From Halobacillus massiliensis (lineage in GTDB: Bacteria > Bacillota > Bacilli > Bacillales > Halobacillaceae), in the NCBI RefSeq assembly GCF_900166625.1, contig NZ_LT800499.1:2273731-2337730 (forward strand): a stretch of DNA of 64,000 bases, given 5' to 3'. Shown here piece after piece: positions 21,142-21,326 of this stretch (positions are counted from its first letter, which is position 1; each line of letters opens with the position of its first letter). The position numbers and the translations under genes were made by a program. Under the pieces are notes generated by a model. It was not told the origin of the DNA and ran no database searches. It saw only the letters and a program-made list of their open reading frames with translations.

Positions 21142-21237
21142 CTATATGCTCGTCACCATAGAATAATAAAGAAAAGCAAGACTTGCAATAAATAATAGAA
21201 TGTACGTTACATCAAGCATAGATAATTTGTTAAACAT
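21142..21237 (-). CDS. 31-residue transmembrane peptide at the yneA position (putative SOS division inhibitor)
   Basis: ATG at 21235-21237, with GGAGGG 8 bases upstream, opens 31 codons ending in TAG: an N-terminal [11 protein letters not shown], a hydrophobic helix of about 18 residues ([16 protein letters not shown]) and a short tail VTSI. The place between lexA and yneB belongs to yneA, whose product (about 100 residues, one membrane helix plus LysM domain) blocks division in the SOS response. Only 38 bp remain before yneB, so no LysM domain can follow. Promoter and LexA boxes are listed separately. The role is inferred from position and topology. Confidence 0.72.
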
Positions 21238-21254
21238 AATTACACCCTCCGATT

Positions 21255-21284
21255 CGAACTCTTGTTCTTAGAAACATTTGTTCG
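21255..21284 (-). promoter_or_regulatory. Two LexA boxes in the leader of the small SOS gene
   Basis: CGAACTCTTGTTCT (21255-21268) and GAAACATTTGTTCG (21271-21284) follow the Bacillus SOS box form CGAAC-N4-GTTCG with one and two deviations. They lie 16 bp apart, start to start, between the promoter and the gene. Confidence 0.82.
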
Positions 21285-21298
21285 CTTTTTATAGTTTC

Positions 21299-21326
21299 AT
21301 TATATACGAACGATTGTTCCTGTCAA
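21299..21326 (-). promoter_or_regulatory. SOS promoter of the small gene-yneB-ynzC operon with a LexA box in its spacer
   Basis: On the minus strand TTGACA (21326-21321), 16 bases, TATAAT (21304-21299): both hexamers are perfect. The spacer contains the LexA box CGAACGATTGTTCC (21307-21320), so LexA would block RNA polymerase directly. Confidence 0.88.

Follow-up and report, generated by a model that had tools for sequence, protein, structure and literature searches.

In the current model of YneA action, a LysM domain which binds glycan is brought to the septal polymerase. SidA of Caulobacter has 29 residues, and TisB of Escherichia coli is an SOS-controlled single-helix peptide. In Bacillus subtilis the membrane helix of YneA was reported to interact with TM7 of FtsW and to suffice for midcell localization; inhibition requires LysM, the helix by itself being described as inactive on division (PMC13396833). 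The proteases CtpA and YlbL clear YneA in B. subtilis (PMC6051672). SosA of Staphylococcus aureus, a division inhibitor of 77 residues, is also SOS-induced and its gene adjoins lexA. It has no LysM domain, yet possesses an essential outer C-terminal part, major truncations of which abolish activity (PMC6851548). SidA is a small SOS-induced membrane inhibitor of division which interacts with the septal synthesis complex and, in the model presented in that paper, binds the other side of FtsW TM7 (PMC13396833). Gp11 of the staphylococcal phage phiNM1, the product of an early gene, is a small membrane protein which blocks division. It has 53 residues and two predicted helices and interacts with MurG and DivIC; the main text of the report mentions neither YneA nor SosA (PMC11237401). 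DinQ of E. coli is an SOS-regulated single-helix peptide which depolarizes the membrane and lowers ATP (PMC3567139).

The window, a stretch of 64,000 nucleotides from Halobacillus massiliensis, carries an open reading frame of 31 codons with one membrane helix (21142..21237, minus strand), here designated mini-YneA. It occupies the place which YneA has in other Bacillales, i.e., between lexA (21413..22036, plus strand; TIGR00498, 266 bits, NCBIfam), from which it diverges, and yneB (20444..21103, minus strand; NF049883, resolvase-like, 356 bits, NCBIfam; likely GTG start at 21103). A DUF896 gene (20138..20371, minus strand), which we take to stand in the ynzC position of B. subtilis, and a transketolase gene are further neighbours, and this gene order presumably is the one of B. 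subtilis. The preliminary description had assigned a ribosome binding site and one membrane helix to the frame and had left no room for LysM ahead of yneB. All of this is borne out. GGAGG (21246..21250, minus strand) is located 8 nt 5' of the ATG, AlphaFold2 predicts a single helix comprising residues 7-29 (mean pLDDT 88.8), and the 38 bp spacer between the stop codon and the likely GTG of yneB has no space for a LysM domain. A terminator-like site was not found between the two frames. The peptide ends two residues past the modelled helix; an outer C-terminal part as in SosA is absent. The hydrophobic moment is low (0.17-0.20).

None of the NCBIfam or Pfam models passed its cut-off with mini-YneA, the YneA model NF010723 gave no match, and the gene is unnamed by the protein models searched. 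With YneA it shares the locus lexA / yneA-yneB, putative LexA-box-like control and an N-terminal helix, the latter in a group-level comparison with YneA-type proteins among which the B. subtilis sequence was not included. It differs by the absence of LysM and of practically any outer part. SosA is likened to it by description. Sequence and model indicate a bare membrane helix under putative SOS control as in SidA; SidA, however, is alphaproteobacterial, and the likeness is an analogy only.

An exact sigma-A type promoter (TTGACA-16-TATAAT, 12 of 12 positions) precedes the gene (21299..21326, minus strand). One LexA-box-like site is situated within the promoter spacer (21307..21320), two are in the leader (21271..21284 and 21255..21268, all on the minus strand), and another one is on the lexA side (21337..21350, plus strand). 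In the whole window such sites are not in excess (21 compared to 17.8 expected). The evidence consists of their clustering at this locus and of their conservation in relatives. Every one of the 65 distinct loci has, in the stretch separating lexA from the peptide, one or more sites with no more than one mismatch (Markov-resampled sequence predicts 0.3 such loci) and two or more sites with no more than two mismatches (0.14 predicted). All 65 also have a promoter with a total of two mismatches or fewer ahead of the peptide, compared to 4.7 expected. This architecture suggests that LexA binds to and controls the mini-YneA promoter. Genome-wide, on both strands, the LexA-box pattern has 40 matches versus 67 for a reversed control; by itself the pattern thus shows no enrichment. 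By eye, the neighbours of these matches resemble Y-family polymerases, YolD-like genes and ImmA-type genes. In 39 inspected stretches around them no box was located 5' of a membrane-LysM gene, a survey which sites departing from the pattern would escape.

The relatives came from LexA searches which yielded 30 loci, the window's own included, and 80 others, with some genomes in both sets. The lexA-yneB gap was read only in loci in which both genes were found; three peptide picks were set by hand. The peptide is encoded in 77 loci (a count which includes that of the window as well as duplicate genomes), corresponding to 65 distinct reading frames and 56 distinct peptides. The length is almost invariant, 31 residues in 63 loci and 30 in 14. 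D9, F16 and Y24 are invariant in all 56 peptides, and K7 (51 of 56), S6 and Y12 (49 each) and F22 (47) are conserved. Over all 2080 pairs the peptide frame has a pN/pS of 0.37, which falls to 0.17 among 28 Halobacillus-like sequences, the two shifted frames having 0.91 and 1.45; these ratios are rough because pS is near saturation. The frame, initially put forward as a candidate, is thus conserved in the lexA-yneB gap of relatives and under selection at the codon level. Judged from these comparisons mini-YneA is a real gene. In two loci (L189 in genome G014, L191 in G007) lexA is broken near codon 25-30, either a real break or a sequencing error.

Carriers belong to 16 named genera: Halobacillus, Thalassobacillus, Pontibacillus, Aquibacillus, Terrihalobacillus, Salimicrobium, Salinibacillus, Salirhabdus, Melghiribacillus, Sediminibacillus, Virgibacillus, Oceanobacillus, Lentibacillus, Paraliobacillus, Saliterribacillus and Gracilibacillus. 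A profile of the peptide matches in 43 of 44 family genomes; the one exception is a draft assembly in about 1000 contigs, 6% contaminated. It matches in 37 of 299 genomes sampled from the order and in five of 299 sampled from the class, where the sole match outside of the order is marginal (E 8.7e-4). A description of the peptide was not found in titles and shown abstracts of the open-licence literature.

Where does the peptide come from? The profile of the 56 peptides was compared with 200 profiles in which columns had been permuted within the N-terminal, core and C-terminal parts. Not one of the 200 reached the real mean, neither for 14 LysM-less nor for 29 LysM-bearing lexA-linked proteins. 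The best of 1056 decoy segments scored 6.4 bits; this was exceeded by seven of the 14 LysM-less and eight of the 29 LysM-bearing proteins, five of these eight being one closely related group (L091, L093, L095, L097, L099). As no more than these exceed the best decoy, homology rests on the group and not on each pair. Readable LysM-bearing cases are L124 (SKIDMTFVAAFIFMILF) and L122 (SKRDLSYLIML). Because the profile beats its column-permuted versions on lexA-linked proteins, the peptide most likely represents the membrane segment of YneA itself, minus LysM, rather than a product of convergence. The preliminary description had left the choice between a reduced and a convergent version; matches to LysM-less and to some LysM-bearing membrane segments make the former the better fit and the latter the poorer one.

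A tree of LexA plus YneB (113 rows; a quick method, 14 labels hand-set, loci without a YneB match left out) unites 70 carriers in one clade of 72 rows with an SH-aLRT of 100. The other two rows are Amphibacillus without the peptide gene; the Amphibacillus loci L067, L069 and L102 have neither peptide nor YneA. The LysM-bearing (25 rows) and LysM-less proteins (14 rows) are positioned outside of the carrier clade, and four rows have neither. Thirteen of the 14 LysM-less rows segregate in one clade with a support of 86, where two long branches meet. The tree was midpoint-rooted for drawing only and cannot separate loss from gain; we infer LysM loss because of the homology seen with the peptide profile, not from the rooting.

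The LysM-less lexA-linked membrane proteins, of about 59-94 residues, constitute a second lineage (Halalkalibacter, Shouchella, Alkalicoccobacillus, Marinococcus and others; loci L071, L073, L079, L088, L092, L094, L100, L103, L109, L112, L114, L197, L199). Another such protein, L201, is placed among the LysM-bearing rows. With mini-YneA they share the locus, the absence of LysM and apparently related first 30 residues (seven of 14 above the best decoy), but they possess a polar outer tail of some 30-60 residues and are outside the peptide clade. In L085, L102, L106 and L108 no YneB was found near lexA; a DUF896-like gene is directly next.

A complete yneA located elsewhere in the genome could account for division arrest. 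At E 0.01 the YneA model has some match in all 61 genomes, as expected of LysM proteins. Its cut-off was passed in 16 of the 61, in 15 at lexA and in one (G037) in a multi-LysM protein via summed domains, and in none of the 37 genomes of the Halobacillus family. The window's own genome has 25 LysM matches, the best match to the YneA profile having an E of 2e-7. An unconserved frame and a complete yneA elsewhere were the two computable findings by which the first proposal could have been overturned; neither has been observed, the latter among 37 family genomes.

Relatives of mini-YneA are present in prophages. There are 13 extra copies in 12 of the 44 family genomes (E 3e-11 to 0.006) and two more outside of the family from the search of the order. 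The prophage-linked relatives have 26-34 residues and are part of early operons. Of the 13 family copies, ten overlap the end of a gene for a YqaH-like protein of 89-104 residues, and HTH and repressor-like genes lie upstream. These ten are followed by YqaJ- and RecT-like genes in seven cases, by another recombination-type gene in two (both G030) and by other genes in L235. Operon families were scanned only for L242 and L234, where HTH repressor, excisionase, HTH_17, YqaJ and RecT were encountered; other operons were assigned by resemblance. When PF17448 (YqaH, cut-off 31) was applied to seven neighbours, L241 passed (43.9), four remained below (26.7, 20.5, 20.0, 14.8) and two gave no match. 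In the search of the order G026 and G015 passed. PHROGs has no model for a prophage peptide copy.

The window's own genome carries one of these relatives in a prophage located at about 3.28 Mb, 28 residues long and overlapping the end of a YqaH-like gene (L234:7537-7623, minus strand). In the same prophage an ImmA-type peptidase gene (L234:12249-12818, plus strand; PF06114, 57 bits) has a LexA-box-like site about 30 bp 5'. Twice more in this genome a box precedes a similar-looking ImmA-type gene (L171, L172; by resemblance). In view of the box 5' of the peptidase gene the prophage copy may respond to DNA damage, the last step presumably being repressor removal.

How tight is the link to YqaH? 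Profile A3, derived from the ten YqaH-like proteins 5' of peptide copies, retrieved 11 loci in 10 of the 44 family genomes, i.e., its own ten and L313. At these loci the peptide profile, built from chromosomal sequences only, scores 11.1-49.1 bits, lowest in L313, and a YqaH-like locus without a following peptide was not found by this search among the 44 genomes. The link is partly circular because A3 was built from genes standing before peptide copies. In other families PF17448 detects 13 loci in eight genomes (nine of the 13 in four genomes of one genus, three below cut-off); there the peptide profile scores 1.0-8.8 bits and in no instance at a membrane ORF after YqaH. Caldibacillus phage CBP1 has a similar operon and no such peptide (2.4 bits).

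In IMG/VR a YqaH-like query yielded two contigs, and the peptide is encoded on each of them (37.6 and 24.6 bits). A YqaJ query yielded 16, L331 again among them; six carry the peptide (11.1-37.2 bits) and ten do not, and YqaJ identity is at least 73% in the peptide-bearing contigs versus at most 59% in the others. Among the seven distinct contigs with peptide, two are new and clear (L330, L331) and two are weak (L336, L337); L332, L333 and L334 repeat the peptides of L234, L245 and L241, probably being the same prophages. When two peptides were compared by tblastn with 50,697 phage records, no match was obtained at E 10, a weak negative as 30 residues are short for tblastn; one YqaH-like protein found none in these records. 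Uncertain copies are L248 (phage context unrecognised), L246 (E 7e-4), L247 (E 0.005) and, at about 11 bits and little above the best background of 8.8, L313, L336 and L337. A relative outside of the YqaH operon type is encoded on the 53 kb contig C2 of genome G327 (L243:5570-5660, plus strand), perhaps a plasmid or phage. The best reading of mini-YneA does not rest on the strength of the YqaH link.

The 15 extra copies were aligned to the chromosomal set by hydropathy alone. D/E9, F/W16 and Y24 occur together in 12 of the 15, singly in 13, 14 and 14. Conservation is periodic at 100 degrees in both sets; 107 of 5000 shuffles were as strong for the chromosomal peptides and 64 of 5000 for the extra copies. 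The phases are -29 and -39 degrees, respectively, with a correlation of 0.79. This common periodicity fits a single partner-binding stripe.

Taken jointly, we consider it probable, though by no means certain, that mini-YneA is the membrane segment of YneA acting as an SOS-induced, divisome-targeting microprotein, relatives of which are also used by phages. This reading draws on what the sequences display, i.e., the gene, its conservation, the LexA-box-like architecture, the group-level homology to lexA-linked segments and the phage copies. Translation, LexA binding, topology, target and division inhibition are its predictions. LexA would repress mini-YneA, and DNA damage would release it together with yneB. 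Upon membrane insertion of the peptide its charged N-terminus would stay inside, and hardly any tail would protrude. A divisome membrane protein, most likely FtsW, would be bound by one conserved face (D9, Y12, F16, L20, L23/Y24), and binding would delay septum synthesis. Temperate phages of these hosts probably hold division during induction by related early-operon peptides. The TM7 region of sequences taken as FtsW, compared in 20 genomes without B. subtilis numbering, varies in both groups; one of these sequences (L288) may be another SEDS protein. Proteases of the CtpA (403.6 bits, cut-off 218.6) and YlbL families (255.7 bits, cut-off 200) are present; outside the membrane, mini-YneA offers them hardly anything to cut.

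As the B. subtilis YneA helix alone is not inhibitory, a bare-helix peptide would need another mechanism. Without LysM or a SosA-type outer part the peptide either blocks the divisome within the membrane or merely binds. Carriage by phages favours an active effect, whereas the B. subtilis result cautions against taking one for granted. That a bare helix of 30 residues, common to the host SOS operon and phage early operons throughout a halophilic lineage, stops septal wall synthesis intramembrane without LysM is a tentative proposal, somewhat less probable than its opposite. If true, the absence of LysM would go along with a switch from trapping glycans to blocking FtsW inside the membrane, and a checkpoint peptide of the host would have been adopted by phages. 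It is unlikely that the peptide localizes to the divisome without inhibiting, whether to recruit, to compete with another FtsW ligand or to modulate mildly. Such behaviour is reported for the segment of B. subtilis YneA deprived of LysM (PMC13396833), but the constraint on length and residues over 16 named genera and the occurrence in several early operons of phages make an active effect more likely.

A divisome-targeting peptide must further be weighed against a membrane-active one of the TisB/DinQ type, SOS-induced and usually held by an antisense RNA, which depolarizes or slows the cell and does not act on the divisome. Size, single helix and LexA-box-like sites fit, and DinQ is such a peptide (PMC3567139). 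Yet DinQ and TisB are type I toxins with antisense RNAs, and there is no sign of such an RNA at mini-YneA: between 21000 and 22200 no plus-strand promoter-like site of at least 9/12 was detected, in a scan which the promoter of lexA itself escapes as well, nor does any Rfam family match at the gene. The low hydrophobic moment together with the conserved stripe suggest a partner, and the peptide sits at the yneA position and resembles YneA-type helices. We regard this account as improbable, to about the same degree as localization without inhibition. Quite remote is an action on another membrane process, e.g., the proteases CtpA and YlbL, which are reported to interact with full-length YneA (PMC6051672), or phage-related exclusion, with the adjacency to lexA providing SOS timing only; group-level homology to lexA-linked YneA-type proteins favours the divisome. 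A leader peptide tuning yneB translation, its product devoid of own function, is hardly credible in spite of a short ORF 38 bp upstream of yneB with no terminator-like site in between, as selection operates at the amino-acid level and related peptides exist in phage operons which lack yneB.

For the divisome-targeting microprotein, the comparisons point to a minimal division halt: in these salt-loving relatives of Bacillus a division blocker of about 100 residues appears reduced to a conserved helix of 30-31 residues. A lineage in which 16 named genera, and phages too, possess only the anchoring helix lends itself to a natural test of the helix acting alone. It also supplies a candidate inhibitor of the septal wall machinery, 30 residues in size and marked by a distinct interface, and possibly a link from the host SOS checkpoint to prophage induction. 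At the other side of the locus, 3' of lexA, a gene for a TetR-type regulator is present (22180-22853, plus strand), immediately preceded by the inverted repeat TGACCGTAGTCATT / AATGACTACGGTCA.
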